NCBI GenBank assembly: GCA_030710605.1
Contig: CP092877.1
Coordinates: 39,842,594-39,906,593, forward strand
Reading direction: 5' to 3'
Length of the DNA stretch: 64,000 bases
From: Cordylochernes scorpioides
Lineage: Eukaryota > Arthropoda > Arachnida > Pseudoscorpiones > Chernetidae
Shown here: positions 21,496 to 63,715 of the stretch, one piece after another
Layout: each line of letters begins with the position of its first letter
Position numbering within the stretch: the stretch's first letter is position 1
Translations under genes and position numbers: made by a program
Notes under the pieces: model-generated
Told to the model about the DNA's origin: nothing
The model's input: the letters and a program-made list of their open reading frames with translations, nothing else
Databases searched by the model: none

Positions 21496-21560
21496 TATTA
21501 ATATATACAGTTATCAGCGTAATGCACAATTCTTTCTTAATTTTGTCACCGTTTGCTTTT

Positions 21561-22579: not shown

Positions 22580-23100
22580 TTTTTTTTTTTTTTTTTACAA
22601 TTTTTAAAACTCATTTATGTTATTAAAATATATGTGCTTTTCCTGTCTATTTACAGATTTATGGTCTATATACACAAGTATACAAGTATGTATACAAGTT
22701 ATTTGCAAATTGCGTTGCAAATTTGCCCTTTCGCTCGCAAGCAGCGCCTCTAGCGGTGAAGATGGGAGGTAATATCAGCTGACCTAATGGACATGTAAAA
22801 CGTGTTTTAACATAGAGAAAAATCTGGAAAAGATATTTTTCGGATTTTTAGTCAAGAAAAATAAATTGACAGGTTCTGGAAAAAAAGTAGTTGTTTTTTA
22901 TTCAGAAAATGATGATGACAATATTGCTGTATCATATTTGATTATCAAATACAAAATTATATCTGGAAAAATTCCAAAAAGCAGGGACCACCTGTGAAGC
23001 CAGTTCATTTTTAGTATGCAGGAACAAAATTCTAACAGAAAAACATTCATTCGAGCAGAAGACACAAAGCCAGATCATCTCTTTATAAAAATATCGCTTC

Positions 23101-23501
23101 TCAGACACAAAGTTTGGAGCGGGACGTTTCACAAGAATGACATCCACGGCGCCAATTTATAATTGTAACGAATAGTATTTGAATAAAAGCATTTAATCGG
23201 GTAAAACCCGGGCATTGCCCTTTCTTAATCAATTCTGTCACCGTTTGCTTTTGTGAATGGAATAAATACCCAAATATGGCCATTTCTCATAACCATCGGT
23301 GGTTCAGTGGTAGAATGCTCGCCTGCCACGCAGGCGGCCCGGGTTCGATTCCCGGCCGATGCATTTTTTTTTTTTTTTTTTACAATTTTTAAAACTCATT
23401 CATATATTATACAAGAATGACATCCACGGTGTAACAAATAGTATTTGAATAAAAGCATTTAATCGGGTAAACCCCGGGCGTTGCCCGGGTCATTCGGCTA
23501 G
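23101..23501 (+). mobile_element. Helitron 3' tails around the fourth tRNA-Gly-like copy
   Basis: A truncated tail (AACCCGGGCATTGCCC) at about 23199-23221 runs directly into the tRNA-Gly unit. A complete tail with CCCGGGCGTTGCCCGGG and CATTCGGCTAG ends at 23501 before a T. Confidence 0.7.
23293..23363 (+). pseudogene. tRNA-Gly(GCC)-like, nearly complete copy
   Basis: 71 nt, the normal length. The acceptor stem pairs at six of seven positions (first pair is C:C). The anticodon stem has one C:A mismatch, and the T arm and box B are perfect. The upstream flank keeps about 46 bp (from GTGAATGGAATAAATACC) that units 1-3 have lost, so this represents the ancestral arrangement. Probably not a working tRNA. 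Confidence 0.7.
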
Positions 23502-28938: not shown

Positions 28939-29330
28939 TAATATTTGACCAATATTCTTTCGTTTCTCCTTCAAGAGCCTAAATTCACAGGATCCTAAAT
29001 TTAACATTTATTATTGTCCAATCACTTTAAATTTCACATACACAGAACCTCTAAAGATAGATCATTTACAAAAATATGTACATAGCACTCGCTAGAAAAT
29101 TCTCTTTTGCAAAAGACTTTCGGTTATTTTACAAAGATGAGATCGCTATTAAAGGTGGTTATTCATCAATTGTGTCACTGATGGAAGGTTTAGCTGTAGA
29201 TATATTTGTGGATTTGTTTAATTTGGGAAGAAGATTTTAAAACTTACATTTTAATGTTTAAAATCGGGCGCTATAGAGAGAAAGGCGCTATTTAGAGGGG
29301 GGGATCTAACACGGGGTCTAATGGAATCTT

Positions 29331-29573
29331 GACACCTCTTTGACAGATTGTCAAGATTCCATTAGATCCCGTGTGGATCTCATAGAATAAAGTCCGCCCT
29401 AGACTGACGAGTGTCATTAGCCCGAAACCATGGTCTCTAGGTGGACGCTTTTCAGTTTGCCAAAGCTGGTGTTGTGGCTTTGTCACCGACCCGAGGCTGC
29501 TAGTTGCGGCGACGGTCAATAGATGGCGTCTGGTTTTAGACGTCTATTTTGACGGGAGAGACGACCCTTGTCT
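29331..29573 (+). mobile_element. Retrozyme fragment, family 1 (single partial unit)
   Basis: Matches the minus-strand reading of the 319-bp tandem at 48621-49258 over about 240 bases with scattered changes. It ends at CCCTTGTCTCTTTA in a TA microsatellite. An inverted piece of the unit lies just upstream (29310-29330). Confidence 0.85.
29392..29446 (+). ncRNA. Hammerhead ribozyme, family 1, diverged copy
   Basis: Stem I CCTAGA (29398-29403) pairs with TCTAGG (29436-29441), extended by GTCC with GGAC. Core CTGACGA at 29404-29410, GAAA at 29424-29427, stem III ACC/GGT, cleavage C at 29435. Relative to the copy at 48750, one stem I pair has changed on both sides (G-C to A-T). Stem II (GTGT/GCCC) is weakened. 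Confidence 0.85.
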
Positions 29574-29897
29574 CTTTATATATATATATATATATGTCAT
29601 AATATATGCTCTTCCAGGATAATAAAACAATCCAACAGCCAACGAGAGAGAGATGGGCAGCTAAAGCTAAGAAAACTAACTTACGACCATTTTTTGGTCA
29701 CATTCCTGAGGGGGGCGTCACCACCTGGCGCTTATCTTTTGTTAGCCCCGCTTGTGTACACAGGGAAAAACAGTCGTTCAGTAGATAACGTCTCACTCGC
29801 CACCTTTTTCTCTCTCGGCTGGCTGCCTGGATGATTGCTCTAACAGCTCGTCGTGTGATTATTTCTCACCTCACCACATCATTTACCACTATATTGT

Positions 29898-29984: not shown

Positions 29985-30262
29985 TCCTCAATGCCTGACC
30001 TTTTCTATGACCCAGCTAACTTCGAACATCCTTTGATTAAAAAAGCCTGCACCACGTTGACGAGGGCCAACAGCCCGAAACGCGTTCGTGTTTAGCTTTT
30101 GGTTTCCATCTAGAAAACGCTAATGTTAGTGGTCAGGATATGCCTAATTTTCTGGCTTTCAGTCACCACCTTGCATTTCTTGGGTCCTTTATCTTTAGTA
30201 ATGCGATAAGACAAATATGCCTAATTTGTTTTTAATATCAACACCTGACCTTTTTATTTATT
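29985..30262 (+). mobile_element. Small retroelement with hammerhead, family 2, copy 2
   Basis: Counterpart of 13588-13830 in the opposite orientation, ending AATATCAACACCTGACCTTTT. It lies about 40 bases downstream of a long TA microsatellite (29901-29947). Confidence 0.65.
30053..30090 (+). ncRNA. Hammerhead ribozyme, family 2, second copy
   Basis: Stem I CACG (30053-30056) pairs with CGTG (30087-30090). The core reads TTGACGA, so C3 is changed. Stem II GGGC/GCCC with loop CAACA is perfect, GAAA is at 30077-30080, and stem III ACGCGT is self-complementary. The C3 change probably weakens or abolishes activity. Confidence 0.7.
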
Positions 30263-30310
30263 ATTATTTTTTTCCACATTAAAAATATATTTAGTTATTT
30301 TTATAAGTAA

Positions 30311-33640: not shown

Positions 33641-35166
33641 TGATGTGTTCCCTGGTTTGGATAGATGAAAAGGGAGGATACACGATGTGACTTATTAAAG
33701 TTTCCTTACTTAAGTATATATATATATAGCAATTTAGGCCAACAACCCCATGTATATAACCCGCAGCAAGACCTTAATGTTGTATAATGGTAAATATGAT
33801 GGAATAACGCACTGAAACACATAAAAGTACAAACATCACTAAAACCTGACAGATAATTACCCTCAAAGTAGCCCTAATAAAGTCGTAATTTTGTAACTGT
33901 TGCTGTGTCAATATATCACAGCAAAGATATAGTACACAACTCTATTTCAACAGAGTCGGTTGTTCTATAATTTGTACACTTTGTGAAATTAAGGTGTGGG
34001 GGGTAGTACCATAAGACAAATTATGTATGAAATAGGTAACAGAGGAAACAAGAAAATTTTTCTAGATATTTATTTAAATATCTTAAAATTTGGGAACATG
34101 TCTATACTGACGAGATATGCTATTTACATAGTAAAATTTTAGATAGAGGTGACCTGAAGTTACTTTATAGCCCTTTAGGGCCCATGCGAAATCTAGGTTG
34201 TCTACTACACAAAAGGGGGGGGAACCTAGATCTCCATCTATTCTAGCGGGACAAAATATACGAACCCTAACACTCCTTTTAAGTCACTTAAAGCCCTTTA
34301 GGGCCCATTCAGAATCTAAATAGATTAGCTTCTGTTCGAAAAAAAAAAAAAAAAAAAGAGGGGGGCTAAGCCATAATGACAAGGGGCTTACCTTCTCTCG
34401 AAAGCGGCGGCAAGGTCTGGTCTCCTCTACGTCTCAGGCCCGTCTAAAAATCGTCCTTCTCACTGAGCGACTCCGATCGAATCCCGCCTTTTGGCAAAGA
34501 ACCTTCTTTTATATCATCTCATTCTCCATTTTCATTCGCCGAAAGAAACACCAATCAAAATGGCCAACGGCTCCAGTATCAATTTCATAGACGCCCCAGG
34601 CCTCTCCCCTTCAAAATAGAACATATAGTATTACCAAAACAAAAAAAATCTAAAGAGAGAAACAACCCCTGCGGTAGTGTAAGATTTCAGACTCCAGCCC
34701 CCCGTCTTTCCACATGGGTTGAAATACAATCCTCCCTTTTTCTCGGGATGGTATATATATCGCCCCCCCGTCTTGGCTAAAATTGACCCAGGCCCTTTTT
34801 ACCTGGACTGTAATGTGATGCTTTCCTTTCTCTGGAAGGATATTTTATAAGTTTCAGTCTTTAGAGATCTTCCTTCTCCATTTTTCTCCTTTTTTTTTTT
34901 TTCTGGTCACCTTTACCTAAATTTTTGGTGAGGGGAATATATGTACATATGAAACAACAGTTTCCAGCTCGGAATGTCTCTGGATGTCTTCTTCTTTACC
35001 AGGCATCAGCTTTCGGCATGGAAGTCTGGTGTCACCAAGTGTCTAAGTTTCTGGGCAAAAAAAAATGGTCTGTAAGTCTATGTGGGAGGGAAGCCATGTA
35101 TCCATTTGATTTGATCATACATACGCCTTCTGTTGGGGTATGGTTACAAAAAAACGTGCCCCAACA
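33641..35166 (-). repeat. gypsy 3' LTR
   Basis: On the minus strand it starts TGTTGGGGCACG and ends GGAACACATCA. Confidence 0.95.
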
Positions 35167-38842: not shown

Positions 38843-40378
38843 TTAGAGGCGACAGTCTAAGCAGAATTTACACTGTGTGGGCCTTTTTACCCTTGTAGAC
38901 CTGCGTAAAGTTAAACTGTTCACACTAACTCTGTCAACTTCCCCTCGTCTCATTACTTCTGAGTTCGCTCTGGTTGTCACCCCTTGTGGAACCACTACAT
39001 TAACAGACCTATTAGGGAGATAAGCTGGACCTGTAAGATGAATCCAATGATCTTCATCACTGGAACTTTGACTTGAATTACCATCACTAGTCTCCTCCTC
39101 CTCTGTGGGGAAAATCCTAATTGGTATATGGTATTGTTTTAACCTATCTATATGGTATTTATCCAAATTCCCAGTTTCTAGATTCTTCAAGAGATATACA
39201 GTATCACCAGCTCTTTTTAGTACCTCATATGGACCCCCATACCTTGGCTCAAATTTGTGACGCCCCTTCGTCTCATGCATTCTCTCCACTAGGACTAAGT
39301 CCCCGTTATTGAAAGTTCTCAGCCTTTTGTTTTCGAACTTAATCCTAGCTTCTTCCTGTTCATTCAAGTAGGTTTCCCTTACTACCTCTCTTATCTTCTC
39401 GACCTCCTCTGTTAGTTCCCGCTCGTAGAAGGCTGCCGTTTGAGCAATCAAATCTTCGCTTACAGGACTTTGTCCCGCTTCCTGAAAGGGTTGTGGGAGC
39501 CTCAGCTCATGTCCGAAGACGAGTTTCGCTGGCGTAAATCCTGTACTAGAATGTTCAGTGGTTCTGATAGCTAAAGCTACCATGGGTAAGATGTCATCCC
39601 AATTAGAACCTGCCTCACACCTACGCAAAGATTCAATTACTGTTCTGTTGAGCCTTTCTACAGCGCCATTACTTTGAGGTCTCCAAGCAGTGGTGTTCAC
39701 TGCACTTACCCCCATGGCCTTGCAAATCCCTTTGAAAATACAGCTAATGAATGCCGAACCTCGGTCCGAAAGTATAGTTTTCGGTACTCCAAAGATAGTA
39801 ATTACGCTTTCCAACAGCGCTTTAACCACTGTACTGGCACACTGGTCTCTTGTAGGTATTAAAATAGGGAATTTGGTAAATAAATCGACTATGGTCAGGA
39901 TGCTAGAATGTCCTTTGGAAGTCTTCTCTAAGGGCCCTATGAAGTCTAGAGCAAGATGCTCAAATGGTTTTCCAGGCCTGAAGTGGGGAGCATTACCAGC
40001 CTTGGTTACACCTTGATTTGAGAGCTGGCAACCCTCGCATCTGTATATATAGTTTCGGACCTGTGTCCTCATACCCGGCCAATAATAATCGTCCTTCAGC
40101 CTTCTCATTACCTTCTTGACCCCAAAATGACCTCCCGTCGGAACGTCGTGGTGATATTTAATCACCATCTCCCTAATGTCTGACGGAACCACCTTCACCC
40201 AGATACCCCCACTGTTCTTAGACACGAGGTAACCCTCGTGCATTTTATAATCCTTATTTTTATAAGTTACAGTCTCGGTAGACCGTCTGTCACCTATTAG
40301 TTTCAATAAGGGGGCCCATTTCTTGTCCTTAAGCAAACCTTCCCACGTCCGATCACTATCTATCAAGGGGGGGCCCAC
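38843..40378 (-). CDS. gypsy integrase
   Basis: 511-residue frame. The N-terminal zinc-binding HHCC is visible (HHDVPTGGHFG, then CEGCQLSN). The core DDE residues lie in LALDFIGPL, ILSDRGSAF and PQSNGAVERLNRT. A GPY/F-type module (RYGGPYEVL) follows. It joins the DNA copy to the genome. It overlaps the RT frame by 23 bases in a different frame at a run of seven G on the plus strand (near 40370), so pol is split there by a one-base change or an assembly error. Confidence 0.93.
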   Translation of the reverse strand: MGPPLIDSDRTWEGLLKDKKWAPLLKLIGDRRSTETVTYKNKDYKMHEGYLVSKNSGGIWVKVVPSDIREMVIKYHHDVPTGGHFGVKKVMRRLKDDYYWPGMRTQVRNYIYRCEGCQLSNQGVTKAGNAPHFRPGKPFEHLALDFIGPLEKTSKGHSSILTIVDLFTKFPILIPTRDQCASTVVKALLESVITIFGVPKTILSDRGSAFISCIFKGICKAMGVSAVNTTAWRPQSNGAVERLNRTVIESLRRCEAGSNWDDILPMVALAIRTTEHSSTGFTPAKLVFGHELRLPQPFQEAGQSPVSEDLIAQTAAFYERELTEEVEKIREVVRETYLNEQEEARIKFENKRLRTFNNGDLVLVERMHETKGRHKFEPRYGGPYEVLKRAGDTVYLLKNLETGNLDKYHIDRLKQYHIPIRIFPTEEEETSDGNSSQSSSDEDHWIHLTGPAYLPNRSVNVVVPQGVTTRANSEVMRRGEVDRVSVNSLTLRRSTRVKRPTQCKFCLDCRL

Positions 40379-41963
40379 GATTTTTAATTACTGCGGCCAC
40401 AACTCTCTTATCTCGTGATGGTTCAGGATCATCCTCACACGGGAACCTACTGAGGAAGTCGGCTACCGTGTTTTCTTTCCCCGTGACATACACAAATGTC
40501 ACATTGAAGTCTTGGATGATCTCTGCCCATCTAGACAATCGAGCGTTCTTATAATCAGACCCCTTGTTATAAGTGATCGGTTTGTGATCGGTATGCACCT
40601 CAACCTTACTGCCCGCCAGGAGGTGTTTAAAGTGCTGCAGAGACAACACTACGGCATAAGCCTCCTTTTCGATTGTGGAATAGCGAGTTTCGGGGCCTAT
40701 CAACCGTTTGCTATAGTAAGCTATTGGCTTGACAACCCCGTCTATCTCCTGTTGGAGACAAGCGCCAACCGCTATTCCACTGGCGTCTGTATTGAGGATA
40801 AATGGTCGCCCTATCATTGGATGAGCCAGTAAAGGCTCACTGGTTAGTACTTGTTTTATGGTCTCAAAGGCTGTCTGCTCTATTGTACCCCAAGTGAATC
40901 TTCGCCCCTTTCTCAATAAGTTACTTAGTGGAGCTAGGAGTTCACCTGCGTTGGGTATGAAGCGCCTGTAGTAGTTTACAGTACCCAAAAGACTTCTGAC
41001 CCCCCTGATGTTGTGGGGACGTTTCAAATCCCTGAGAGCCGCGACATTATCCCACATGGGTTTTATCCCATCCTGATCAATTACATGACCGAGGTAATCT
41101 ACAGAGCCCTTGAAGAAATAACTCTTCCCACGCCTAGCCTTTAGATTAAAGCGACTCAGGCGTTCGAGTACAGCGGCAAGGTCCGCCACATGCTGCTCAT
41201 GAGAGTCGCTGTAGACGATGACATCATCGATGTACAAACGAACGCATTTATACAACAAATCCCCTAGGACCAAATTCATGGCCCATTGGAAGATCTGAGC
41301 TGAGTTCTTCGCTCCTTGTGGTAGACGTGTGAAACGATATCTCCCCCAGGGCAGAGAGAAAGTGAAATAATCTCTATCACCCTCCGGGATGCGAATCTGG
41401 AAAAATCCAGAGGTCAAGTCTAATGTGCTGAAGACCTTTGCGCCTGCAAAAGCACGCAGGTTGTCTTCAACGCGAGGTATTGGGAACGGGAAGAATTCTG
41501 TCACCTCATTAATTAATCGCAGGTCCATTGTAATGCGGACGCTGCCGTCTGTTTTAGCAACAGGGAATAGGGGAGAATTCCATAAGGATGTACTCCCCTC
41601 GATAATTCCAGCTTCTTCCAATTCGTCTACTAAGGCCTTCACCTTTGAGACCAGCTTATTTGGGATCGGATACTGACGTCTATAGACTGGCTTTCCAGTC
41701 AGTATCTTTAACTTAGGGGCAATGATGGTTGACCCATCGCCCATATCGGAGATGTCGTCACAGAAACAGTGACTATATGCCCTAAGGACGTCTTCCCCTG
41801 TCCTGATTTTATGTAGAGGTATACTGGGTGGTCTGACAGGCACCTCACTGGCCTGTAACGAGGACAGGAAGGCCGACTTAGTCGGTTCTTCGACCTGCTC
41901 AAAGTCTGATCTGACGCTTCCATCATGGTTGAGAGTGAGTCTTAGAGCCTTGAATCCTGGCAT
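40356..41963 (-). CDS. gypsy reverse transcriptase and RNase H
   Basis: 535-residue frame. RT motifs: LDLTSGFFQI, LPQGAKNSAQIFQ and the catalytic box YIDDVIVYSD. RNase H motifs: ILNTDASGIAVGACL and HTDHKPITY. It copies the element's RNA into DNA and removes the RNA strand. The frame opens with the protease's last part (ILGMPGF at its start), so the true polyprotein begins further upstream. Confidence 0.95.
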   Translation of the reverse strand: MPGFKALRLTLNHDGSVRSDFEQVEEPTKSAFLSSLQASEVPVRPPSIPLHKIRTGEDVLRAYSHCFCDDISDMGDGSTIIAPKLKILTGKPVYRRQYPIPNKLVSKVKALVDELEEAGIIEGSTSLWNSPLFPVAKTDGSVRITMDLRLINEVTEFFPFPIPRVEDNLRAFAGAKVFSTLDLTSGFFQIRIPEGDRDYFTFSLPWGRYRFTRLPQGAKNSAQIFQWAMNLVLGDLLYKCVRLYIDDVIVYSDSHEQHVADLAAVLERLSRFNLKARRGKSYFFKGSVDYLGHVIDQDGIKPMWDNVAALRDLKRPHNIRGVRSLLGTVNYYRRFIPNAGELLAPLSNLLRKGRRFTWGTIEQTAFETIKQVLTSEPLLAHPMIGRPFILNTDASGIAVGACLQQEIDGVVKPIAYYSKRLIGPETRYSTIEKEAYAVVLSLQHFKHLLAGSKVEVHTDHKPITYNKGSDYKNARLSRWAEIIQDFNVTFVYVTGKENTVADFLSRFPCEDDPEPSRDKRVVAAVIKNRGPPLDR

Positions 41964-42370
41964 ACCTAGGATTCCATCAAAGCCTAGCCCACCTAGATGG
42001 CAGTATTCAATGTTGTTTTTACTTCCCTGATGGGGTTTCCCCTGATATAGGCCCTAACCTCTATTAACTCACTCCCCAGTGACCTTAACTCACTCCCACT
42101 AATCCCCTTAAGGAAGGTGGGTTTACCCAAACCTTCAGCGCTAATATCCAAGGAATCTATATTTACAATGTTGGCCTCTGAGCCTGTATCGATAATTAGT
42201 CTGATAGTCCTATTACTCAGAGACCAACCTTTATCTACAAATGTACAAGTGATTACAGGTAGGCCGGCTAGAGTTCCCCCATTCTCTGCTTTGAGGCAAG
42301 CCGGACCTATTTTTTTGTCATGGCTGTGCAAATTCTTGCCATGTGGCCTGTCTCCCCGCATCTGAAGCAC
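41964..42370 (-). pseudogene. gypsy aspartic protease, frameshifted
   Basis: The active site IIDTGSEANIV is in the frame 41993-42370, which stops at a TAG. The flap-side motif GLGFDGILGMPGF continues in another frame just downstream. A single indel near 42000 therefore breaks the protease. The frame overlaps the end of gag, consistent with gag-pol frameshifting in the family. Confidence 0.85.
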
Positions 42371-43287
42371 CTGATGGGTGTCCGCGTTGCTTCGGGGCCC
42401 TCATACCCCCTTGGCGCTCCTCCCTTGGTTGTTGTTGGAGGGCCTTCCTTGCGCTGTTCTTGTGGGGCTCTACCGTTGGGGTTCTGTCGGGGTCTCTCCT
42501 GCCTGGTCCCTTGTATAGTGGGCTGGTTGTTCTGAGCGGAACCTCCTCTCCGCTGGAAACCTCTGGCCTGGTTGGTGTCCCACCTGTTTCCCATATTCAT
42601 CCTGGGTTGCTCCCTGTGGGTCCTCCTCAGGTCCTGGTTTTCCGTCTCCAGGTTCTTTAACTTGGATTCCAGCCGGGCCATCTGGCTCGTCAACTCCCTC
42701 AACTTCCTGGCACTCCCCTCTTCATCTTCCATTTGGCATCTGGAGTACTCGTCATCCCTTTCTTCGATCTGGTGGAGACTGCTCACAACCACCTCCCATG
42801 ACTCGTTCTGGAGTTGGTGGGCTCTCTGCCACAGGTTTGGACAGAGTCCAGTGAGGAAGATATCAGCGACCTCAGTGATGTCGATCCTCAGGCCATCTGA
42901 CTCGGCTTCTGAGGCAAGGCTCCGCACTCTGTTCGCGTATTCCTTAACCTTTTCTCCGGGCCTTTGTCTACAGGAGAAGAACTTCTTCCTGGCTTCTCTC
43001 TTGGGGGCCCTCCTGGAGAATCTCTGTTCCAGGTTTTCCTTTAATTCGTTGTATCCCAGTTTGATCTGGGAGGCCTGGAGGGCGAACTCTCTCGCAGCTC
43101 CTCGAAGGTGATTGTCCAGGAGGATCCTCCTCCTAGAATCATCCAGGGCTTTCACATCGTAGACCAATTCGAAGTCCCGGATGAACTTGTCGAATGGTAT
43201 GAGCCCATTTCCCTCAAACTTCTCCAAATGGTATAGCGCAGACGGCAACGGCGTCTGGCTGGGTGAGGGGTCATCTCCAGGGTGCAT
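42307..43287 (-). CDS. gypsy Gag
   Basis: 326 residues: a retrotransposon Gag capsid region with FFSCRQRPGEKVKEYANRVR, a coiled-coil stretch (LESKLKNLETENQDLRR), a basic Arg/Gly/Pro-rich region, and one CCHC knuckle (CFRCGETGHMARIC) near the end. It forms the particle and packages RNA. Start ATG at 43287. Confidence 0.93.
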   Translation of the reverse strand: MHPGDDPSPSQTPLPSALYHLEKFEGNGLIPFDKFIRDFELVYDVKALDDSRRRILLDNHLRGAAREFALQASQIKLGYNELKENLEQRFSRRAPKREARKKFFSCRQRPGEKVKEYANRVRSLASEAESDGLRIDITEVADIFLTGLCPNLWQRAHQLQNESWEVVVSSLHQIEERDDEYSRCQMEDEEGSARKLRELTSQMARLESKLKNLETENQDLRRTHREQPRMNMGNRWDTNQARGFQRRGGSAQNNQPTIQGTRQERPRQNPNGRAPQEQRKEGPPTTTKGGAPRGYEGPEATRTPIRCFRCGETGHMARICTAMTKK

Positions 43288-45347
43288 GGTTCTCTCTCAG
43301 TCTGCTGTCTGAAATATTCCAGATTAGTAGTGGGGATTGGAGAAGAGAATCTCATGTATTAATGGGGGCAGGGAACCGAGGGGTGAAAGATGGGTTCATG
43401 GCCCAAAAGGGAAAGGAAATGGGAGAGGTACATGTTCATCCATGTGGGTGGATAGTAATCTTAGATCAATGCTCTTTCTGGGTGTATTGAAACTAACTAG
43501 CCATGATGGTAGGGGCGCTGTTCTCACTGCCTCTATTGTACATCAGAATGAACTATAATTATTACTAGTGTATTATTATTCCAACAGCCTATGACCTTTA
43601 AACCTTTATACCTTCATATACACTCGACGGGGTAGTCACCTTGTTAAAAAAAAATCTATAATGTCATAGATCAGCTAGGGGGAGAACATAACAAAATTGT
43701 GCGAATAGTCTGTTTCAACTACTGATTGTAAGCATATTAAACTCGTTCTCTTTAGGTTGGCTCGCTCATTCATCTTCAATCTACTTTCAATAGTCATATT
43801 GAGTTCACATGGATGCTAGATGTAAACTGTATCAAAATAGTGTAGTTTTCTAGTTTCCGAATTATATGACAGTTAGAGAAAGAAACAAACATTCTGGAAA
43901 TATCTCGCACTGGCTACTATTAAAAAAAATTGAATGGGGTACAGCTCTGATCTTACAGGATACCTCATGGCTCATAGAATTGAATCGCTCATTTCTCACT
44001 AAAATATTCACACAGGGTATGGAGGTCTCCAGCGGTTCTATAGCTATTGGTCAACTAAATTAATTAATGGCAGGAATTGAAGCAAGTTTAAATGCTCATG
44101 TGCTGTTTTGTCATGCGTCTTTATGTCATCTGCACAGGAAAGTGTCGCCTCAAGGACCTAATTCTGGGACTAACATCCGCTGCACATTTCAGGAAGGAGT
44201 GGTCGTCCATACAATAGCAAGATATCATTTTGCTGCCAATGTACAATGTTGAGCATTTTCCATGTCGTCATTTTGTCGATCCCCAATCTTCTAGGGTGTT
44301 TCTTTAAGCATTTCACGATGTCATTTAATGCTTCATGCGATCCCGCCCGGCATTCAATAAGTAAGTATTTGATCGTACCACCTCCAGGAGACCATCCCAT
44401 TGCGGCCGAATCATTTCCACCCAACTTATAACGCCGTCCATATCGCGTAATTGAAATTAGTGTAAAACTCAAAGAATAAGACCTTAATCTCTTAATTCTT
44501 TACTAATTTCAGTTGGCTCAACATAAATCTTCTCAATTATTAATTTAGTACAGTGGCGTGACATGTCACACTTCTTCTAGTTCTTTCGCAAGCTCGATTA
44601 ATCCCAGTGGAAACCCGTCCAGGCGTCAATCCCGTGCTAACCCGTCATGCATGACTTCAAATTTGGAAATTATTAGACCTGAATATTTGCAGTGGCATCT
44701 GCTTCCACTGAAAGTATTTAAGACACAAGGCTGCCTCTTTAAATCACTGTCTTTACTCCCACATGCCTGTGTAAACTTTAACCATGACTTTATCAATTCT
44801 CAAAATTCTGCCTATCGAGTATCCTGAGAATCAATGTTCTTCTTGTCTACGGCGGATTATCACAGTAATTGTTCCCTAGAGTTATCTGCGTCGAGTGGTC
44901 AGTCTGTACTACTAATTCTCCACTCTAACTCTAGGACTCTTCTATCTACTCGGGCTGTTCAAAAATTTTCAAGACAGTTGTTCAAATCCCCAATGATAAT
45001 CTGCTAAATTTCGATAATTATTGGAATTCTCATTAAACAGAATAACTACACCTTTCTGACACAGAAATATCCAGCATCAAGATATAGCGCACCGTCCAAT
45101 TTCTTTATTTCAAGACGGTGTCAAATTACAACTGAAGGAACATACTAAGCATATAACTGGTTTAAATTTCATGTAATCTCATCATGCCTTCTGCTGGCAA
45201 ATATTTACTGTAAAATTCAATACTATCAAGATGGTTTTATTTTTCTTCATCCAAAAAAAAATGTTTCAGAAATAGAATCTTGGAAATCTCTACTTGAGGC
45301 AAAAAAAATGCACATTTATCAATTTAAGATAACCTTCCCTTGTCAGA

Positions 45348-46290: not shown

Positions 46291-47818
46291 TGATGTGTTC
46301 CCTGGTTTGGATAGATGAAAAGGGAGGATACACGATGTGACTTATTAAAGTTTCCTTACTTAAGTATATATATATATAGCAATTTAGGCCAACAACCCCA
46401 TGTATATAACCCGCAGCAAGACCTTAATGTTGTATAATGGTAAATATGATGGAATAACGCACTGAAACACATAAAAGTACAAACATCACTAAAACCTGAC
46501 AGATAATTACCCTCAAAGTAGCCCTAATAAAGTCGTAATTTTGTAACTGTTGCTGTGTCAATATATCACAGCAAAGATATAGTACACAACTCTATTTCAA
46601 CAGAGTCGGTTGTTCTATAATTTGTACACTTTGTGAAATTAAGGTGTGGGGGGTAGTACCATAAGGCAAATTATGTATGAAATAGGTAACAGAGGAAACA
46701 AGAAAATTTTTCTAGATATTTATTTAAATATCTTAAAATTTGGGAACATGTCTATACTGACGAGATATGCTATTTACATAGTAAAATTTTAGATAGAGGT
46801 GACCTGAAGTTACTTTATAGCCCTTTAGGGCCCATGCGAAATCTAGGTTGTCTACTACACAAAAGGGGGGGGGGGAACCTAGATCTCCATCTATTCTAGC
46901 GGGACAAAATATACGAACCCTAACACTCCTTTTAAGTCACTTAAAGCCCTTTAGGGCCCATTCAGAATCTAAATAGATTAGCTTCTGTTCGAAAAAAAAA
47001 AAAAAAAAAAGAGGGGGGCTAAGCCATAATGACAAGGGGCTTACCTTCTCTCGAAAGCGGCGGCAAGGTCTGGTCTCCTCTACGTCTCAGGCCCGTCTAA
47101 AAATCGTCCTTCTCACTGAGCGACTCCGATCGAATCCCGCCTTTTGGCAAAGAACCTTCTTTTATATCATCTCATTCTCCATTTTCATTCGCCGAAAGAA
47201 ACACCAATCAAAATGGCCAACGGCTCCAGTATCAATTTCATAGACGCCCCAGGCCTCTCCCCTTCAAAATAGAACATATAGTATTACCAAAACAAAAAAA
47301 ATCTAAAGAGAGAAACAACCCCTGCGGTAGTGTAAGATTTCAGACTCCAGCCCCCCGTCTTTCCACATGGGTTGAAATACAATCCTCCCTTTTTCTCGGG
47401 ATGGTATATATATCGCCCCCCCGTCTTGGCTAAAATTGACCCAGGCCCTTTTTACCTGGACTGTAATGTGATGCTTTCCTTTCTCTGGAAGGATATTTTA
47501 TAAGTTTCAGTCTTTAGAGATCTTCCTTCTCCATTTTTCTCCTTTTTTTTTTTTTCTGGTCACCTTTACCTAAATTTTTGGTGAGGGGAATATATGTACA
47601 TATGAAACAACAGTTTCCAGCTCGGATGTCTCTGGATGTCTTCTTCTTTACCAGGCATCAGCTTTCGGCATGGAAGTCTGGTGTCACCAAGTGTCTAAGT
47701 TTCTGGGCAAAAAAAAATGGTCTGTAAGTCTATGTGGGAGGGAAGCCATGTATCCATTTGATATGATTATACATACGCCTTCTGTTGGGGTATGGTTACA
47801 AAAAAACGTGCCCCAACA
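46291..47818 (-). repeat. gypsy 5' LTR
   Basis: Nearly identical to the 3' LTR; differences include a longer G run and a few substitutions. Confidence 0.95.

Positions 47819-48582: not shown

Positions 48583-48620
<38 letters not shown>
48583..48620. repeat. TA microsatellite at retrozyme insertion
   Basis: About 19 TA units abut the first retrozyme unit; more TA repeats follow at 49388-49402. Confidence 0.9.
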
Positions 48621-48623
<3 letters not shown>

Positions 48624-48749
48624 AGACAAGGGTCGCCTCTCCCGTCAAAATAGACGTCTAAAACAGACGCCATCTATTGACCGTCGCCGCAACTAGCGGC
48701 CTCGGGTCGGTGACAAAGCCACAACACCAGCTTTGGCAAACTGAAAAGC

Positions 48750-48804
48750 GTCCACCTGGAGACCATGGTTTCGGGCTGATGGCCCTCGTCAGTCCAGGGC
48801 GGAC
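48750..48804 (-). ncRNA. Hammerhead ribozyme (type I), consensus core, unit 1
   Basis: Minus strand from 48804: stem I outer GTCC pairs with GGAC, inner CCTGGA with TCCAGG. Core CTGACGA, then stem II GGGC/GCCC with loop CATCA, then GAAA. Stem III is ACC/GGT, so ACCATGGT is self-complementary. The cleavage triplet GTC puts the cut between 48761 and 48760. Every invariant base is present. Confidence 0.92.
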
Positions 48805-49068
48805 TTTATTCCATGAGATCCACACGGGATCTAATGGAATCTTGACAATCTGCCAAAGAGGTGTTTTGCTGGCAAAGTGGCTGGGCCATATCTATGGCCA
48901 AAATATAGATGGAAATTTTGCCGGGAGGAAAATGATCTAAAGAGACAAGGGTCGCCTCTCCCGTCAAAATAGACGTCTAAAACAGACGCCATCTATTGAC
49001 CGTCGCCGCAACTAGCGGCCTCGGGTCGGTGACAAAGCCACAACACCAGCTTTGGCAAACTGAAAAGC

Positions 49069-49123
49069 GTCCACCTGGAGACCATGGTTTCGGGCTGATG
49101 GCCCTCGTCAGTCCAGGGCGGAC
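49069..49123 (-). ncRNA. Hammerhead ribozyme (type I), unit 2
   Basis: Identical to the unit 1 ribozyme, 319 bases further on. Two cuts on one transcript would free an exact 319-nt monomer. Confidence 0.92.
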
Positions 49124-50203
49124 TTTATTCCATGAGATCCACACGGGATCTAATGGAATCTTGACAATCTGCCAAAGAGGTGTTTTGCTGGCAAAGTGGC
49201 TGGGCCATATCTATGGCCAAAATATAGATGGAAATTTTGCCGGGAGGAAAATGATCTAAAGAGACAAGGGTCGACTCTCCCGTCAAAATAGACGTCTAAA
49301 ACAGACGCCATCTATTAGACGTCTATTTTGACGGGAGAGGCGACCCTTGTCTCTTTAGATCATTTTCCTCCCGGCAAAATTTCCATCTATATATATATAT
49401 ATGTTGTAATGTGTAGAGCCGAGCCGACAACACGTCGCAGTAGGCTCCTCATCCAACATGCAGTCATAGGCCAGAGTGGGAGCGCACTAGCCTGAAGATG
49501 AATGAATACCACACGTATAAGAACATGGTTACCTAGGTTTAGAGGGGGTAGCACCCAATGAGACGAGGTGGACTATGAGAGTCCTGGGATCACTGGTTAA
49601 TCTGGCAGCATGGCGACCTGGTCTATACCGTGCACCTTGCTATACTCCTTCCTGTGGGCTCAGCAGGAACCCAGCTCATATGTTAATGATGAAGTCAGAG
49701 AGGGCGGACCTTTTTAGGTGTCCGTGTCCAATCAAGGACAGGCATGACCTGTCCACATCCTTCCTGAGTTGCTTTGACTTATCAGTGATCTGTTATCCGA
49801 TCTTACTGGATAGAAGTTATTTCTATAAAATGTTTTAAAATATTGCACAAAAATATTTTATTTTTAAGAAAAGATTGTTATAAGTATTCATAGGCTTTCC
49901 CAATATTAAACGTGGACTCTTTAGAACCTTTGTATGTTTGTTGGTAATTTACTAATTAGTAACTCACACAGTAAATCATTCTATTCATGGCTTAATATTA
50001 CGTGTCTTTTTTTAGGGGGGGGGGGGGGGGCGGGGAATAGTGAAAAATGGTATTATTCAAGTCTAATAAGGCTACAAAGTTCTAGAGCTTTAGATTGACA
50101 TAGCTCAAAATATTTCAAAAGACAAAAAAGTAACCTTTTATTTCAGTATTTTTCAGAAAAGGGGGGGGAGAGGATTCGATAATCTTCCCCTAAAGATGTC
50201 ATA

Positions 50204-51327
50204 TCTATATATATAAAAATGGATGTTTGTTGGTTGGTCCGTTGGTCCGTCCGTGAGTCCGTCCGTGAGTGATAATCTTCTACATCGCTCAACCAATCGT
50301 GATGAAACTTTGGGAAGATGTTTAGTATACTACAGGGATGGTTTATGGCTAATTACTCTTTAGAAATAACCTTTCGTTGCATTTCTATTTACAATAAAAC
50401 GTAAATTCACTCGCAATCTGCGCCCCTCTCACGGCAGACGGGGGATGGCGGCGCGCGACGATTGGCTGCCGGCGCAGCACGTGACCTCCCTGCCCCCCCC
50501 CGCCCCCCCCCCCCCACCGAGTAAATGAGATCTCCCGGCTGACGGCCGAGCAGCGCCCTCTAGAACGCGTGACGATTTTGACGGCGCGGAGCGCTCCCGG
50601 TTGGACAGTTGCGCGGGGACAGAGTGACCTCGCGGGTGCCCTCCGGGAACTACGTCCATCTTCCATATGTAATATACATTTAATCGTGTAAACCCGGGCG
50701 TTGCCCGGGTCATTCGTCTACAAATTCGCAGTAGTTCACTAATTCAAACCAATATTTCCATACATAGGTAAAAGAATACTGGGAAGACTGACATTTATTA
50801 ATGCAGTGATTATAATCAATGCTTACAATGAAGGGCTATATTGTCTATATATATAAAAATCACCTTCAAATTTTAACGTAACGTTCCATTCTCAATCCCG
50901 TTGGGCTTTAGATCGGCTAAAACATTTTTATAGCAATAATATTTATAGCAATAAATATAGCGAATTTAAGACGTAGTGATTATATTCTGTGTTTGTGCAT
51001 ATATAGATATTTTACAGAAAATGTGAGAACGTTCTATTAGAATATCTCGAAAACAAAAAACAATACATATAAACGAGTTCACTGACATTTATTAATGCAG
51101 TGATTATAATCAATGATTATAATGAAGGGCTATATTATCTATATATATAAAATTCACTTTCAAATTTTAGCGTAACGTTCCATTCTCAATCCCGTAGGGC
51201 TTTAGATCTGCTAAAACATTTTTATCTTTATAAGTGAATATTGACTTTACTGTACTGAATAGTTTAGTATAATGTTAATTTAACATATTACAATTTAGCC
51301 ACAGCAGGGCGTGGCCGGGTCCGCTAG
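50204..51327 (+). mobile_element. Helitron with exact empty site in copy A
   Basis: It runs from TCTATATATATAAAAATGG to the hairpin GCCACAGC/GCGTGGC and GGTCCGCTAG, between A (50203) and T (51328). Copy A has the uninterrupted A-T junction, so there is no target duplication, as Helitrons require. Inside are further head-type starts (TCTATATATATAAAA at about 50844 and 51139) and an internal tail (CCCGGGCGTTGCCCGGG, about 50691), so it is a composite. No Rep/helicase. Confidence 0.92.
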
Positions 51328-51533
51328 TATATATATATGATATGAGGTATCCAAATATAGAATCTATATAAATAACATGGGTTAAAGAAAATAAAAATGA
51401 TACTAATCTAGTATTATTCTCTAATGCTTATCATTGAATTATATAGATTGTTCGTCTTTAGGAATGTATAGGATTACAAATTGATGCAATTTATTGTTAG
51501 ATAGATCTCAACTGAGGAGTCTGTTGAAATTGT

Positions 51534-52232
51534 TTAGTCTTCGCCGCCGGTCATATTGAGAATACGCAGGATCATAAGGAACAGATTGACCATGTCGAGA
51601 TAGATATTGAGAGCTGCGAAGATATATTCTTCGGGAGAGATGGAGTAAGCATGGCGTCCTGTGAGCATGAGTTGAGTATCATGGATAAGATAGACTGAGA
51701 ACAGTATCGCTCCAGCCACACAGTAGATTAAGTGAAGAATCTTAATATGCACAAACATCAGCACAAAACCAGCAAGCAAGAACGCCAAGAGGAATACAAT
51801 AAGAATTCCATTCATCGTAGTAAAGTCGATGGAAGTCTGGAAGGCAAAGATGGTTAGAGAAAAACAAAGAATAGCTGTGATTGCTAGTGCAAGAAGGACT
51901 AATGCTGGATCAGTTTGGGCAGCAACGCAGCCAAGAAGGAAAGCTTGAAGTAGAGTGAATGCTCCAAGACAAATGATATTGGTAGGGAAGGTTCTACGAA
52001 CTTGCTCGCAGCATACAAGAACGAAGGTGAAGATGATGATAAGGACGAAGGCAATCAGAGGAAGTTCAGGATGCTGCACTACAAACTCCCGCAGGTCTGA
52101 GACAAGGGTGAATGCAGCTATGATAGCTATGGTCGCGACAATCTGAGCTAGGACGATGGAGTACACCTTGCGGACAAATCCAAGGCGCACCTTAGGACAA
52201 GAGAACGATTCTTCAAATGTGTCGCAAGCCAT
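51534..52232 (-). CDS. Lifeguard/TMBIM (BAX inhibitor-1 family) protein, copy B
   Basis: 232 residues, one amino acid different from copy A (Thr84). Seven hydrophobic helices, RKVYSIVLAQ at the start, D185 and D213 as the probable di-aspartate sensor, and the family end SISPEEYIFAALNIYLD. Role by family: calcium leak and anti-apoptotic control in Golgi/ER membranes. No introns. A polyadenylation signal (AATAAA on the minus strand) lies at 51490-51495. Unlike copy A the upstream flank is fully sequenced. A Helitron sits 200 bases downstream of the stop, probably beyond the transcript end. Confidence 0.95.
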   Translation of the reverse strand: MACDTFEESFSCPKVRLGFVRKVYSIVLAQIVATIAIIAAFTLVSDLREFVVQHPELPLIAFVLIIIFTFVLVCCEQVRRTFPTNIICLGAFTLLQAFLLGCVAAQTDPALVLLALAITAILCFSLTIFAFQTSIDFTTMNGILIVFLLAFLLAGFVLMFVHIKILHLIYCVAGAILFSVYLIHDTQLMLTGRHAYSISPEEYIFAALNIYLDMVNLFLMILRILNMTGGED

Positions 52233-52424
52233 TTTGTGGTTCGGATTATATGAAGTTTTCGGTTATAATTTTTTTAAAATATGCTGAAACCACCCCATAC
52301 TGGCCATATTCAACAATGACAGCAAATTTAGAGATCAACTGATATCTTTTGAAAAGGAAAAAATTAAAGAATACAACAGGTTTCTGGAGATGAGTTTCTT
52401 TTCAATTTTATTAATGTCATCTCA

Positions 52425-53505: not shown

Positions 53506-54005
53506 GTAACTTTCAGGCAAGCTCTTCCTCAGCAAACTAAAACATAAAAAAGGTAATGGAGAGATATTGTATAGAATTTTAAAGATATATCTATGCAAAT
53601 ATAGGACATAAGAATTTAATAATTTAGATGATTGAAAGTTTTTGAAGAACAAACTATGAAAAGGTTGATGAACTTAGTGAATAGAGAAATGGACATATTA
53701 TTGTTATATATATGAATATCAATATACATATATCAAAAGAGGAAGTATTAATATAGAAGGGGATATATTGAGATGGTAGCTGTATACTTTTGTTGATTGT
53801 ATTTGGGTTCTTGATGGTTTCTATTGCTTCAAAGATAAGTCTTTGGGTTATAGTTGTGGCACTTCTATGGAGGATTCTGGTACTATTGAAGTCTGGAGTA
53901 TGGCCTGTTTCATTGATGTGTTTAACTAATAGGGATTTTGGGTTGTGCTTCGAAATATTTCTTTGGTGTTCTTTGATTCTAATGTTTTCAATATGGCTGT
54001 TTTGA
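53505..54005 (-). pseudogene. Penelope-like relic: GIY-YIG C-terminus and tail
   Basis: Minus strand 54005-53765 translates without stops: NIRIKEHQRNISKHN, SLLVKHINETGHTPDF, QRLIFEAIETIKNPNTIN, the same order as the fragment at 45348. Downstream on the same strand (about 53520-53545) the tail holds CTGAGGA and GAAA, a hammerhead-type core with poor stem II. No reverse transcriptase. Confidence 0.7.
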
Positions 54006-54286
54006 GTAACTTGAAATTAAACGAAACCTTCTAATTATACTACGGAAAGTGTTCATAAAATTGATAAATTTAATAATAGGTGAATAGATGAAGTTGCAGT
54101 TTAAAATATAGGCTATTAAAGGCTTATTCAAGTTAAGCCAATACCTAATTTACACTTTTTTTGAGAGAGATATAGATCTTGAAGGAATTCGAACCTATAA
54201 TTTGAAAATAGCTGAATGCTTGCTTATTTTAGGGTTATAAAATGTAATATTAATATTATATGTATTTCTGAATTACGTTTGTTATA

Positions 54287-54575
54287 CATATATTAAAAAT
54301 AAAAAGGCATATCCTGACCAGGAGCACATGTGCTTTTTAGATGGCAGAGCGCTATCTAGTGGAACAGAAATCAACTAAACATTGATTTTAACTGTTCCCT
54401 GATATTTGCCAACCCATTTTCTTGAACCCAAATATAAGGGAACAGTTAAAATCAATATTTAGTTGATTTCTGTTCCACTAGATGGCGCTCTGCCATCTAA
54501 AAAGCACATGTGCTCCTGGTCAGGATATGCCTTTTATTTTTAGTATCAACATTTGACCTTTTATTATTTTTTTCT
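54287..54575. repeat. Large inverted repeat, family 2-related
   Basis: Two arms of about 115 bp (54305-54420 and 54437-54553) share GATGGCAGAGCGCTATC and GGAACAGAAATCAACTAAAC. They lack the hammerhead part. A further copy lies at 63600-63715. Confidence 0.8.
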
Positions 54576-55112
54576 AGTATTTTTTCAAAAATATATATAC
54601 TATAGTGAATTTTTATTTAAAAACTAGCGGACGTACCCGGCTTGGCCCGAGTTTTACCCGAGTAAAGGTTTGTCTAACGAATCTCTCGCTAAAGTGAACA
54701 TTTTTTTCCCGGTCCCTTGAAAAATACTCGATAAGTTGAATAAAATCAATATTAATTGGTTCCCTCGGAAATTGGAAGTTAAAGGAATAGTATCTTGCCT
54801 TGGAATTGTATCATTATTCTTGTCTCAAATAAATTGCCGTGTCATCCTGAATTTTGTCTTTCCTAATTTTCTACATTACAAAATCATCGTATCATCATGA
54901 TAATATTTAGAGCAGATTGTTGAATTATAACAGATAAATTAGAATATTTATCTTGATTATTTCTAGGCGAAAAGTTATTTCAAAAATTTTATTTGCTAGA
55001 AACCTTCCCAGTACTATACTAAATAACTTCCCAAAGTTTCATGGCGTTCCAATGAGTGGTTTGGTCAGGCATAAAGGACAGACACACACACACACATACA
55101 TTCATTTATATA

Positions 55113-56110
55113 TGTCATAATTTGTATATAATTAAATGCAACCCCGACCCACTATGTATGTATCATGTATGATTTTCAAAGATTTAATAAAAGAATAAGG
55201 TAACTGGAGGAAAGAAAGTAACAAAAGACATAGAAAGTAGATCTAGAGGAGAGCATATTTATTAATAACGACGCAGTTAACCTTCTGACCCCAGGTCCCT
55301 GCGAGCTAAGTTTAAACCAACACTTCCTGGAAAAACAGGACGTATCTAGTGACCAGAAGTTATAAATGTTAAAGCTAACACCCAATATTTCCGGCAAAGA
55401 CAGGACGTATCTAATATCCGTCGAAGTTATAAGCGTCAAGCTACCCGACACTTCCTGTCAGGCAGACCATCTTTCATCAAGGAGAGCCGCGGGCCAATCA
55501 GAAGACAGCACCTTAAGTAGGTCAACCAATAGGAAAAGATCATGTGACATCTCTCGACCAATCAGAAGACAGCACCTTAAGTAGGTCAACCAATAGGAAA
55601 AAATCATGTGATATCTCTCGACCAATCAGAGAGAAACTGAGTCTTGGTGTTAAATCGAAAAGCAAGAATGGTCAGTTACGTTTTTTCGCTCTCATAGGAA
55701 CAACACCCACAGTTGTTCAGTGACTCTCGCCGAGTTCGGACAGTTGCTCCTTGGCTTCCAACAAGGTAACATCTACTCTAGAGATCTCTATCTCTCCGCT
55801 CATTTCATCTAAATCCCATCATCACCATGTGATCAACTAATTAATAAGTCAAATCGCTCAACTCTTCTCAAGCTTTCTTCCCTCCAATCCAGTTGCCTTT
55901 TATTTTCAAATCTCATCATGTGTCCTGATTATTCCTAACTGTGTGCTTCACTTACCACTCAACGACTGCGCTTCAACCCAATCTCACCATTCGCATCCAA
56001 CAACAAGAAACCCCGCAACGATATTGCCACAGGACGGTTAAGTCGACAGGATTCTACAACAGTGTAATACATCAAATATTATAGTGTAATAACAATTTCA
56101 TCATATTACA
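55113..56110 (+). repeat. LARD-like 5' LTR
   Basis: 998 bp. Contains a duplicated 75-bp block (GACCAATCAGAAGACAGCAC and neighbours). Confidence 0.92.
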
Positions 56111-59100: not shown

Positions 59101-59403
59101 CTTAATAGAACTCCCTCGATCTCCTTTCTTATCTCGAGTAGAATTCGTTTAGGCACATTTTTTTTTTTGCCCACTATGTACCATAACATTCATTGATTTC
59201 TTACAATTAAAAAATTTTTGATTTCTATTAATTATACTCAACCTATATCATCAACACCATTCTATTTTACTTATTATGTCACCAGCAATACTTGTATATA
59301 GACTCAATGCCCACAACTAATTTTCCCACAAAATTATTTTCCACTTTACAGAATTCTCTCAGGCTAACCCCTTCTTGAATTCTTCACATGTAGGGGGCGC
59401 ATC

Positions 59404-60401
59404 TGTCATAATTTGTATATAATTAAATGCAACCCCGACCCACTATGTATGTATCATGTATGATTTTCAAAGATTTAATAAAAGAATAAGGTAACTGGAG
59501 GAAAGAAAGTAACAAAAGACATAGAAAGTAGATCTAGAGGAGAGCATATTTATTAATAACGACGCAGTTAACCTTCTGACCCCAGGTCCCTGCGAGCTAA
59601 GTTTAAACCAACACTTCCTGGAAAAACAGGACGTATCTAGTGACCAGAAGTTATAAATGTTAAAGCTAACACCCAATATTTCCGGCAAAGACAGGACGTA
59701 TCTAATATCCGTCGAAGTTATAAGCGTCAAGCTACCTGACACTTCCTGTCAGGCAGACCATCTTTCATCAAGGAGAGCCGCGGGCCAATCAGAAGACAGC
59801 ACCTTAAGTAGGTCAACCAATAGGAAAAGATCATGTGACATCTCTCGACCAATCAGAAGACAGCACCTTAAGTAGGTCAACCAATAGGAAAAGATCATGT
59901 GATATCTCTCGACCAATCAGAGAGAAACTGAGTCTTGGTGTTAAATCGAAAAGCAAGAATGGTCAGTTACGTTTTTTCGCTCTCATAGGAACAACACCCA
60001 CAGTTGTTCAGTGACTCTCGCCGAGTTCGGACAGTTGCTCCTTGGCTTCCAACAAGGTAACATCTACTCTAGAGATCTCTATCTCTCCGCTCATTTCATC
60101 TAAATCCCATCATCACCATGTGATCAACTAATTAATAAGTCAAATCGCTCAACTCTTCTCAAGCTTTCTTCCCTCCAATCCAGTTGCCTTTTATTTTCAA
60201 ATCTCATCATGTGTCCTGATTATTCCTAACTGTGTGCTTCACTTACCACTCAACGACTGCGCTTCAACCCAATCTCACCATTCGCATCCAACAACAAGAA
60301 ACCCCGCAACGATATTGCCACAGGACGGTTAAGTCGACAGGATTCTACAACAGTGTAATACATCAAATATTGCAGTGTAATAACATTATCATCATATTAC
60401 A
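59404..60401 (+). repeat. LARD-like 3' LTR
   Basis: 998 bp, almost identical to the 5' LTR. Confidence 0.92.
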
Positions 60402-62425: not shown

Positions 62426-63205
62426 ATGGCCCAATTTGTCTTCTGGATTCTCTTTCTTCTTTTCTCCTATCTATTTGGCCGACGCGTACTTCACTCCTGT
62501 GAGTTCACACCGAATCATTTTGAAAGAATCGATCTGAAATCTGATGTTTCAGGGAACCTTACAAGATCTTTCAAAAGAGGCGGGATCCAGTTTGCCAGTT
62601 ACCGTAGGTATTGAAGGTGATGTTATCGAATGATGCATAATGTCTGGATTGTTTCAGTGCTGGGACAAGCTAATCAGGAGAACATCAACTTGATGGTAGA
62701 TCAAGCTCTGAATGGATTACGAGCGGATAAGATATTCACGTCGTTTCTCGAACCGCTAATCATTCCCAATCAATGCTTATATTACGTTACTCTGCAGAAC
62801 ATTCGAGTATGGGGCCTCAAGTCCATGCGGCGACAAGGAGATTGTGTGGTGCTATCTTTGCCCTCAAAACGTACTGTGATTCTTTTCCTCGTTGCCAGAA
62901 ATCTGCGGTTCAGTGCTCGGGGAGAAATGGGAGTCCCAGTTGTCTTCTCAGGATCAATCGACGCCGTGCACTTCAAGGTCTCTGTTGATCTGCTGCAGAA
63001 GATGGTGAAATTGCGTGACGTGCGGATTCTATCGTTACGTAACTTGCAGCTGACAGATCTTAATGTACGGGCTTTGAGAGTGGCCGCTCTGAAACCGATC
63101 AATCTGATTATCCAACGATTGGAGCGACCTGTCAAATACGAGATTCAGAAATCTGTGCGAGAATTCTTGACCAGAGAGCTTGAGCGCTACTTAGGCTCTT
63201 CTTAA
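62426..63205 (+). CDS. Secreted group-7 mite allergen-like protein (two exons)
   Basis: Exons 62426-62603 and 62658-63205, joined in phase across a 54-bp GT/AG intron, give 241 residues. The first exon begins with a signal-peptide-like stretch (FVFWILFLLFSYLFG). The second holds WGLKSMRRQGDCVV, matching the conserved G-L-K-x-M-x-R-Q-G-D block of the mite group-7 allergen family, after LNGLRADKIFTSFLEPL. It ends in a long amphipathic helix (VREFLTRELERYL). Family proteins have a lipid-binding fold like the N-terminal half of bactericidal/permeability-increasing protein; ligand and role are mostly unknown. The start was chosen for the signal peptide; the longer upstream frame has no such start. 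Exon 1 and the very short intron are inferred. Confidence 0.75.
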
Positions 63206-63520: not shown

Positions 63521-63599
63521 ATAATGTTTCAAATTGCTATATATGGATGGTGCGTTATTGCTTTATATCAATATATAGTGTAATTTGGGTTGGCCAAAA

Positions 63600-63715
63600 T
63601 CATTGGAACAAGCTAAATCAATGTTTAGTTGATTTTTTTCCACTAGATGACGCTCTGCCATAAAAAATGCTCTTGTGAGCGGTCTGGAAATGCCAATTTT
63701 ATTTTTATATATTGT
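63600..63715. repeat. Family 2-related repeat fragment
   Basis: TCCACTAGATGACGCTCTGCC with a CTCTTGTGAGCGGTCTGG block, decayed relative of 54437-54553. Confidence 0.6.

Follow-up and report, generated by a model that had tools for sequence, protein, structure and literature searches.

A putative hammerhead retrozyme of Cordylochernes scorpioides with insertion ends resembling those of Penelope-like elements

The window analyzed here, a stretch of 64,000 nucleotides of contig CP092877.1 to which all positions refer, contains a short tandem array of predicted hammerhead ribozymes on its minus strand. As judged from its sequence, the identification of this array as a non-autonomous, non-LTR retrozyme of the metazoan kind is well supported. 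We consider, with a probability of about 0.6, that the RNA of this retrozyme, either circular or multimeric, was copied by Penelope-type machinery which started internally on its template; the Penelope part of this reading is moderately supported. The family is known from the sequence of the window and was unmatched to any named family; to that extent the sequence family is new, and its kind is already known.

Penelope-like elements have been regarded as a strong candidate, and no more, for the mobilization of animal retrozymes (PMC7229834). The question of the mobilizing enzyme becomes concrete when the ends of retrozyme insertions are compared with those of resident Penelope elements. The window lends itself to this comparison, as it holds two insertions with one internal 3′ end, one of them with a tail-like end, together with Penelope-like repeats whose ends are short or long. 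In the literature that was searched, most of it outside subscription journals and supplements, we found no report linking the ends of retrozyme insertions with the Penelope tail.

The tandem array and its predicted hammerhead ribozymes

The array is constituted of two head-to-tail units of 319 bp (unit 1, 48621-48939; unit 2, 48940-49258; both minus strand) and of a third, 5′-truncated unit of 58 bp with one mismatch (49259-49316, minus strand). The array amounts to 2.18 units by length, and TRF reported a period of 319, 2.2 copies and 99% matches. The left edge of unit 1 is the 3′ end of the insertion in the RNA sense (site A); its position is ambiguous by 2 bases (TA), common to the edge and to the flank. 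At the other side, an inverted arm of 78 nt (49315-49392, plus strand) stands head-to-head with the array, with a loop of 15 nt between it and the stretch of the array that it pairs with. This arm is 100% complementary to 48903-48980 (78/78) and 99% complementary to 49222-49299, and its outer end (site B) lies past the boundary between units 2 and 3 by 32-37 nt: 37 nt with, and 32 nt without, its last 5 bases, which are common to the arm and to the adjoining (TA)n tract (49388-49402). Another (TA)n tract (48583-48620) adjoins the 3′ end of the array. The preliminary description of this DNA had reported two apparently identical units and a trailing inverted fragment that spans a unit junction, and had proposed a multimeric or circular template. 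The two units are indeed identical, with 0 differences over 319 bases, and the complement of the arm does extend across the junction. As neither edge of the array falls at the cleavage site and the arm crosses from one unit into the next, a multimeric or circular template is well supported.

No ORF of at least 120 aa overlaps the array, which therefore contains no RT or GIY-YIG endonuclease ORF of that size. Neither strand of the unit contained a Pol III B-box, and a single A-box-like match was present on the antisense one. A weak Rfam match to MIR319 covered the 78-nt hairpin of the array.

In both full units the minus strand encodes a type I hammerhead, at 48750-48804 (predicted cut between 48761 and 48760) and at 49069-49123 (predicted cut between 49080 and 49079). 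The motif reads GUCCGC-CCUGGA-CUGACGA-GGGC-CAUCA-GCCC-GAAA-CCAUGG-UC-UCCAGG-U-GGAC. Stem I comprises 6+4 pairs, or 11 when a G-U is counted, with a small internal loop (GC/U), and stem II has 4 pairs and CAUCA as loop 2. Stem III is limited to 2 pairs (A-U, C-G) and is capped by CAUG, a palindromic tetraloop, and the 8 nt found there, ACCAUGGU, are self-complementary throughout. A scan of both strands for the core together with stems I, II and III gave 2 matches in the window, which are these two, and 0 matches on both strands of 100 first-order Markov resamplings. The bare core pattern had 9 matches in the window against 1.66 expected, and for this reason the core alone is weak evidence and it is the full structure that counts. 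Rfam detected no hammerhead in the array, neither at the gathering threshold nor at E ≤ 10.

For the isolated 55-mer, the minimum-energy fold was at -24.2 kcal/mol and the catalytic fold at -16.9 kcal/mol, a gap of 7.3 in a model which ignores tertiary contacts; in the circular fold of the unit RNA, the core GAC was paired with GUC. When two 55-mers were cofolded unconstrained, they formed a double hammerhead with a shared stem III of eight pairs. In this modeling, the short palindromic stem III suggests that the hammerheads may act as dimers. Axolotl motifs with a similarly short stem III are described as cleaving far better as dimers (PMC7229834). The unit RNA was also predicted to be unusually stable, both linear (z -6.56; 0/100 shuffles as stable) and circular (z -6.48; 0/200 shuffles), and 67% of the bases were paired vs 61% in shuffles.

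The retrozyme class proposed at the outset, and the complete minus-strand hammerhead on which it was founded, both withstood the analysis: the invariant core, a four-pair stem II and ten stem I pairs are all present in each unit. We retain this class because several features occur together, namely a tandem unit of about 300 bp with a complete type I hammerhead, no ORF of at least 120 aa, a stable unit RNA (z about -6.5) and a dispersed second copy. Metazoan retrozymes are recognized by a type I hammerhead core, by tandem repeats of 150-450 bp (here 319 bp in 2.18 copies) and by dispersed copies, all of which were found. The G+C content of the unit (50.8%) falls marginally outside the low values of animal retrozymes (<50%), which we take as a trend and not as a defining feature. 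A type III hammerhead inside LTRs, which would point to the plant LTR retrozymes, was not found in the array: the hammerhead is of type I, in tandem units without an internal domain.

Hammerhead-like motifs were also seen in two palindromic elements of the window (7535-7713 and 8577-8775), each with a head-to-head pair of motifs resembling CTGATGATGG...GAAACGTC, in which the base after CTGATGA is unable to pair with the base before GAAA. On either side of the element at 8577-8775 lies one copy of an imperfect direct repeat of 20 bp (8557-8576 / 8776-8795, 90%), which may represent a target duplication.

The second copy and the insertion ends

When the window was searched with the unit, a second, 5′-truncated copy was found on the plus strand (29332-29576; 95.9% identical over 245 columns), so that the copies of the family within the window come from two insertions only, the array and this second copy. 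Its 3′ end falls at the same base as that of the array (site A) and is followed by a (TA)n tract (29577-29595). Its 5′ end is not at (TA)n; there, an inverted 5′ piece (29309-29334, minus strand) forms arms of 26 nt that are 96% complementary, with 14 nt between them and without the tail extension. The hammerhead of this copy (29392-29446, plus strand) has an intact core, and its stem II shows one mismatch and one wobble gained. Among the 9 substitutions between the copies, 2 constitute one compensatory change of a stem I pair from G-C to A-U (CCUGGA/UCCAGG to CCUAGA/UCUAGG). A single compensatory pair, from a single comparison, is no more than suggestive.

Three of the four outer ends of the two insertions adjoin (TA)n tracts of at least 12 nt. 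There are 11 tracts of this size in the window, where they make up 0.32% of the length, and 0.24% of the window positions lie within 3 nt of a tract edge. Counted from the predicted cut of the ribozyme, the 3′ end lies 140 nt downstream in both insertions, which implies that the cDNA would have started internally and not at the end of a cleaved monomer. Site A has 2 bases and site B 5 bases in common with the flank; the 5-base overlap of site B with (TA)n could result from microhomology joining. An inverted 5′ copy with a 30-40-bp tail, as in insertions of the Penelope type, was observed in one of the two insertions, where the arm measures 78 nt and the tail 32-37 nt.

The sequence TATATTGTAATGT, with at most 1 mismatch, occurs 4 times in the window vs 0.22 expected: in the left and in the right flank of the first retrozyme copy, beside a Penelope-like repeat near 63 kb, and at 1588. 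The match at 1588 is explained by a duplication, as 49395-50214 and 1583-2420 are duplicates (95.6%). Since the edge of the 1583 duplication coincides with the right junction of the retrozyme, the pre-insertion site is unreadable and we claim no target duplication. The duplicated right flank at 1583 was considered as an empty site and rejected, its left side mismatching the left flank of the retrozyme.

The duplicated segments (1583-3333 and 49395-52256) match at 95.6% over 843 columns and at 99.8% over 928 columns, with about 1.1 kb extra between both matching parts in the second of them (49395-52256), and the duplicated sequence includes a lifeguard (Bax1-I) ORF. The best 120 of 762 relatives of this ORF have at most 55% identity with it, and those named by organism are animals. 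Other direct duplications are found at 33641-35166 / 46291-47818 (99.5%) and at 55110-56110 / 59401-60401 (99.3%). Pfam matched ORFs of the window to transposases, RT, integrase and lifeguard; we take the transposases to be of the mariner and Tc1 types, and the RT and integrase ORFs to be of the Ty3 type. Pfam recognized RT/RNase H and integrase among the LTR-element ORFs at 38843-43296 (minus strand), and an adjacent ORF has a CCHC-like motif. The latter presumably corresponds to gag, and the whole to a Ty3 element. For the ORF at 62621-63205, no homologue was found at E ≤ 0.001. At 24913-26331, a 51-bp repeat is present in about 29 copies, with more than one frame open and with open frames on each strand (e.g., NICRNMAAPPPPPPKRR), and three tandem units of 485 bp are found at 21497-22935. 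In this latter array, tRNA-like sequences at 22036 and 22511 have mismatched acceptor stems; a tRNA at 23293-23363 scores better than these two.

Penelope-like repeats and rival explanations

Two solo repeats with a longer 3′ end, at 13560-13840 (minus strand) and at 30044-30270 (plus strand; middle not alignable), contain a decayed minimal hammerhead-like motif at 13776-13799 and 30058-30081, respectively. At 54290-54587, a related repeat forms a head-to-head palindrome whose plus arm has the longer 3′ end and whose minus arm has the shorter one; one short and one long arm are likewise found in the first retrozyme copy. A further repeat, at 63582-63712 (plus strand), has the shorter 3′ end and runs into TATATTGTAATGT. 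We regard these repeats as probably Penelope-like from their minimal hammerhead, their inverted arrangement and their ends, and not from a coding region that would prove it. In pairwise alignments, the short end common to the 54-kb minus arm and the 63-kb copy reads TTTTTA, followed by a TATA-rich flank. The long ends, which are not sharp, run past this point by 34 nt in the 13-kb/30-kb pair and by 68 nt in the pair formed by the 13-kb repeat and the 54-kb plus arm.

The stem II region of the retrozyme agrees with the repeat at 30058 in 23/24 bases (BLAST E 6e-5; as a pattern, 0 expected), and the copies at 13776 and 30058 differ from each other in 3/24. This shared region had 0 exact matches in collections of viral and genome contigs, neither of which was built for animal elements. 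Behind the hammerhead, both families present CAxTAGATGGCG(C)TCTG, and the CAATAGATGGCG motif is thereby placed at a nearly equal distance past the cut (81 nt in the retrozyme vs 88 nt, the cut of the 13-kb repeat being a presumed one). The score of the motif alone (22) is within the range of shuffles (maximum 24); in the test of co-linearity, 68/5000 shuffles reached the score and 9/5000 did so also at such an offset. TAGATGG and CCATCTA within 150 nt of each other occur at 4 places in the window, all of them in these two families. The retrozyme has CCATCTA, to which TAGATGG is complementary, at the outer end of the arm, that is, at site B. Outside the hammerhead and one short motif, BLAST revealed no similarity between the retrozyme and the Penelope-like repeats. 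Among 10 of the 30 window ORFs of at least 120 aa, Pfam found no Penelope RT. The ORF at 53654-54016, which seemed to us to follow the pattern of a Penelope endonuclease end, was rejected as such: Pfam gave nothing at 0.001, no homologue was found, and the sole Pfam match at E ≤ 10 was FtsX (E 0.015).

The retrozyme could also have been mobilized by the RT of a LINE (non-LTR) element through target-primed reverse transcription, with the inverted piece as a product of twin priming, and we hold this to be unlikely. Twin priming does yield inverted 5′ pieces, and the window contains a LINE-type endonuclease ORF (10535-10939; Pfam E 5e-9), near which the RNase H match in ORF 9961-10398 is very weak (E 0.1, below the Pfam cut-off). 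However, the start on the RNA is internal, at the same base in both copies and at (TA)n, and each inverted piece faces the direct sequence head-to-head and overlaps it, with only 14-15 nt separating the arms, unlike the expected outcome of twin priming. The window also holds Penelope-like repeats whose ends are short or long, one of them arranged head-to-head. LINE-like target duplications of 15 bp are described for repeats of Nematostella (PMC4918200), which speaks for a LINE. A still less probable reading, in which retrozyme and Penelope derivative would be one thing, makes of the array a miniature, deleted Penelope-like element with tandem pseudo-LTRs. The common stem II region, the co-linear motif, the short and long ends and the inverted arm would all fit, but stem I of the hammerhead is full and a stem III is present, unlike in the minimal Penelope form, and no similarity was found beyond the hammerhead and one short motif.

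That the array is a tandem satellite which unequal crossing-over has expanded, and which keeps its hammerhead just as a fossil, appears very improbable to us. Identical tandem units are in keeping with it, and hammerhead satellites are known in newts (PMC7229834); nevertheless, there are only 2.18 units, a dispersed single copy stops at the same 3′ position, the inverted arm and the (TA)n at both ends are marks of an insertion, and no part of the hammerhead is missing, its counterpart in the other copy showing a compensatory change. We give the least credit of all to an assembly artefact as the source of the unit identity or of the inverted arm: the assembly is not gap-free (one 100-N gap at 3334-3433) and the units are identical, yet the third unit has its own mismatch, and the second copy independently shows the same 3′ end with an inverted 5′ piece.

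Proposed mechanism and comparison with known systems

Under copying by Penelope-type machinery, the array would be transcribed, and its hammerheads, probably paired as dimers through ACCAUGGU, would cut the transcript into 319-nt monomers, which a host RNA ligase would close into circles. A Penelope-type RT/endonuclease would then cut TA-rich DNA and start reverse transcription internally, at site A. By making more than 2 turns of the circle, or by following a multimer left uncut, the RT would produce the 2.18 units. The other DNA end would be joined via the short inverted arm, either by a second initiation at site B or by a snap-back of the cDNA. Dual initiation accounts for the tail of 32-37 nt and for the A/B pair of ends; snap-back accounts for the overlap of the arm with the direct sequence and for the shortness of the loops (15 nt in the first copy, 14 nt in the second). 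For the palindromes of the Adineta Penelope elements, which have an inverted pseudo-LTR beside their 5′ end and, on one arm, an optional tail of 31 bp, self-priming is the explanation favored in the published text (PMC3846280).

The Penelope-like element of Anolis, as described in PMC11167929, offers parallels for several of these steps. Its reverse transcription starts internally, at 111-118 into the ORF, and its hammerhead cuts at +26. AT-rich DNA is preferred as target, with both strands cut and extended, and the RT has two internal start sites, the interval between which matches the tail of 30-40 bp. According to the same source, the RT started in an AC-rich stem-loop, with no homology to the DNA, whereas sites A and B of the retrozyme have 2 and 5 bases, respectively, in common with the flank. 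In vitro, hammerhead mutants were without effect on insertion, and unprocessed RNA was the main template; none of these results calls for a circle or helps the mechanism proposed here.

A more specific version can be put forward only tentatively, and we judge it somewhat less probable than its opposite: Penelope proteins would copy the circles of animal retrozymes via the RNA region shared behind the hammerhead, start at A or at B, 32-37 nt away, and use both cut ends of the (TA)n, and the insertion would be a record of rolling-circle copying by such an enzyme.

Among described elements, the metazoan non-LTR retrozymes (PMC7229834) are like the present one in their tandem units of about 170-400 nt with a type I hammerhead, in the highly self-paired RNA predicted for them, and in their coexistence with Penelope-like hammerheads, as in the window. 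The same source reports tandem repeats with type I hammerheads across many phyla of animals, including in crustaceans and insects; for ticks, one example is given by name in a figure legend of PMC4918200. The hammerhead repeats of newt and axolotl share with ours tandem units of similar size (about 330-350 bp) and a short stem III with a tetraloop, and their dimers cleave better (PMC7229834). Stem III has two pairs and a tetraloop in HHR_Amex2, as here; in HHR_Amex1 the tetraloop is palindromic, as here, and stem III has one pair vs two (PMC7229834). The axolotl differs in having about 126,000 hammerhead motifs (PMC7229834). From the set presented in that paper, our retrozyme differs by its G+C content of 50.8%, by a 3′ end that in both copies is internal and lies at (TA)n, and by the inverted 5′ arm with its extension of 32-37 nt; none of the words "inverted", "internal", "microsatellite" and "AT-rich" appears in the main text of PMC7229834.

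The plant LTR retrozymes (PMC4918200) are also non-autonomous retroelements bearing a hammerhead, and a circular RNA template has been proposed for them. However, the published description gives them a type III hammerhead, where ours is of type I, together with LTRs, a PBS and a PPT, target duplications of 4 bp and circles of 600-800 nt. From the Penelope elements as described for Anolis and Adineta (PMC11167929, PMC3846280), ours is distinguished by a 319-bp unit without an ORF of at least 120 aa, by a full-size hammerhead and by a start that is not in an AC-rich stem-loop. With these same elements it has in common the inverted 5′ copy, the optional extension of 30-40 bp on one arm, the AT-rich target, the tandem order, and a start of reverse transcription located past the hammerhead.
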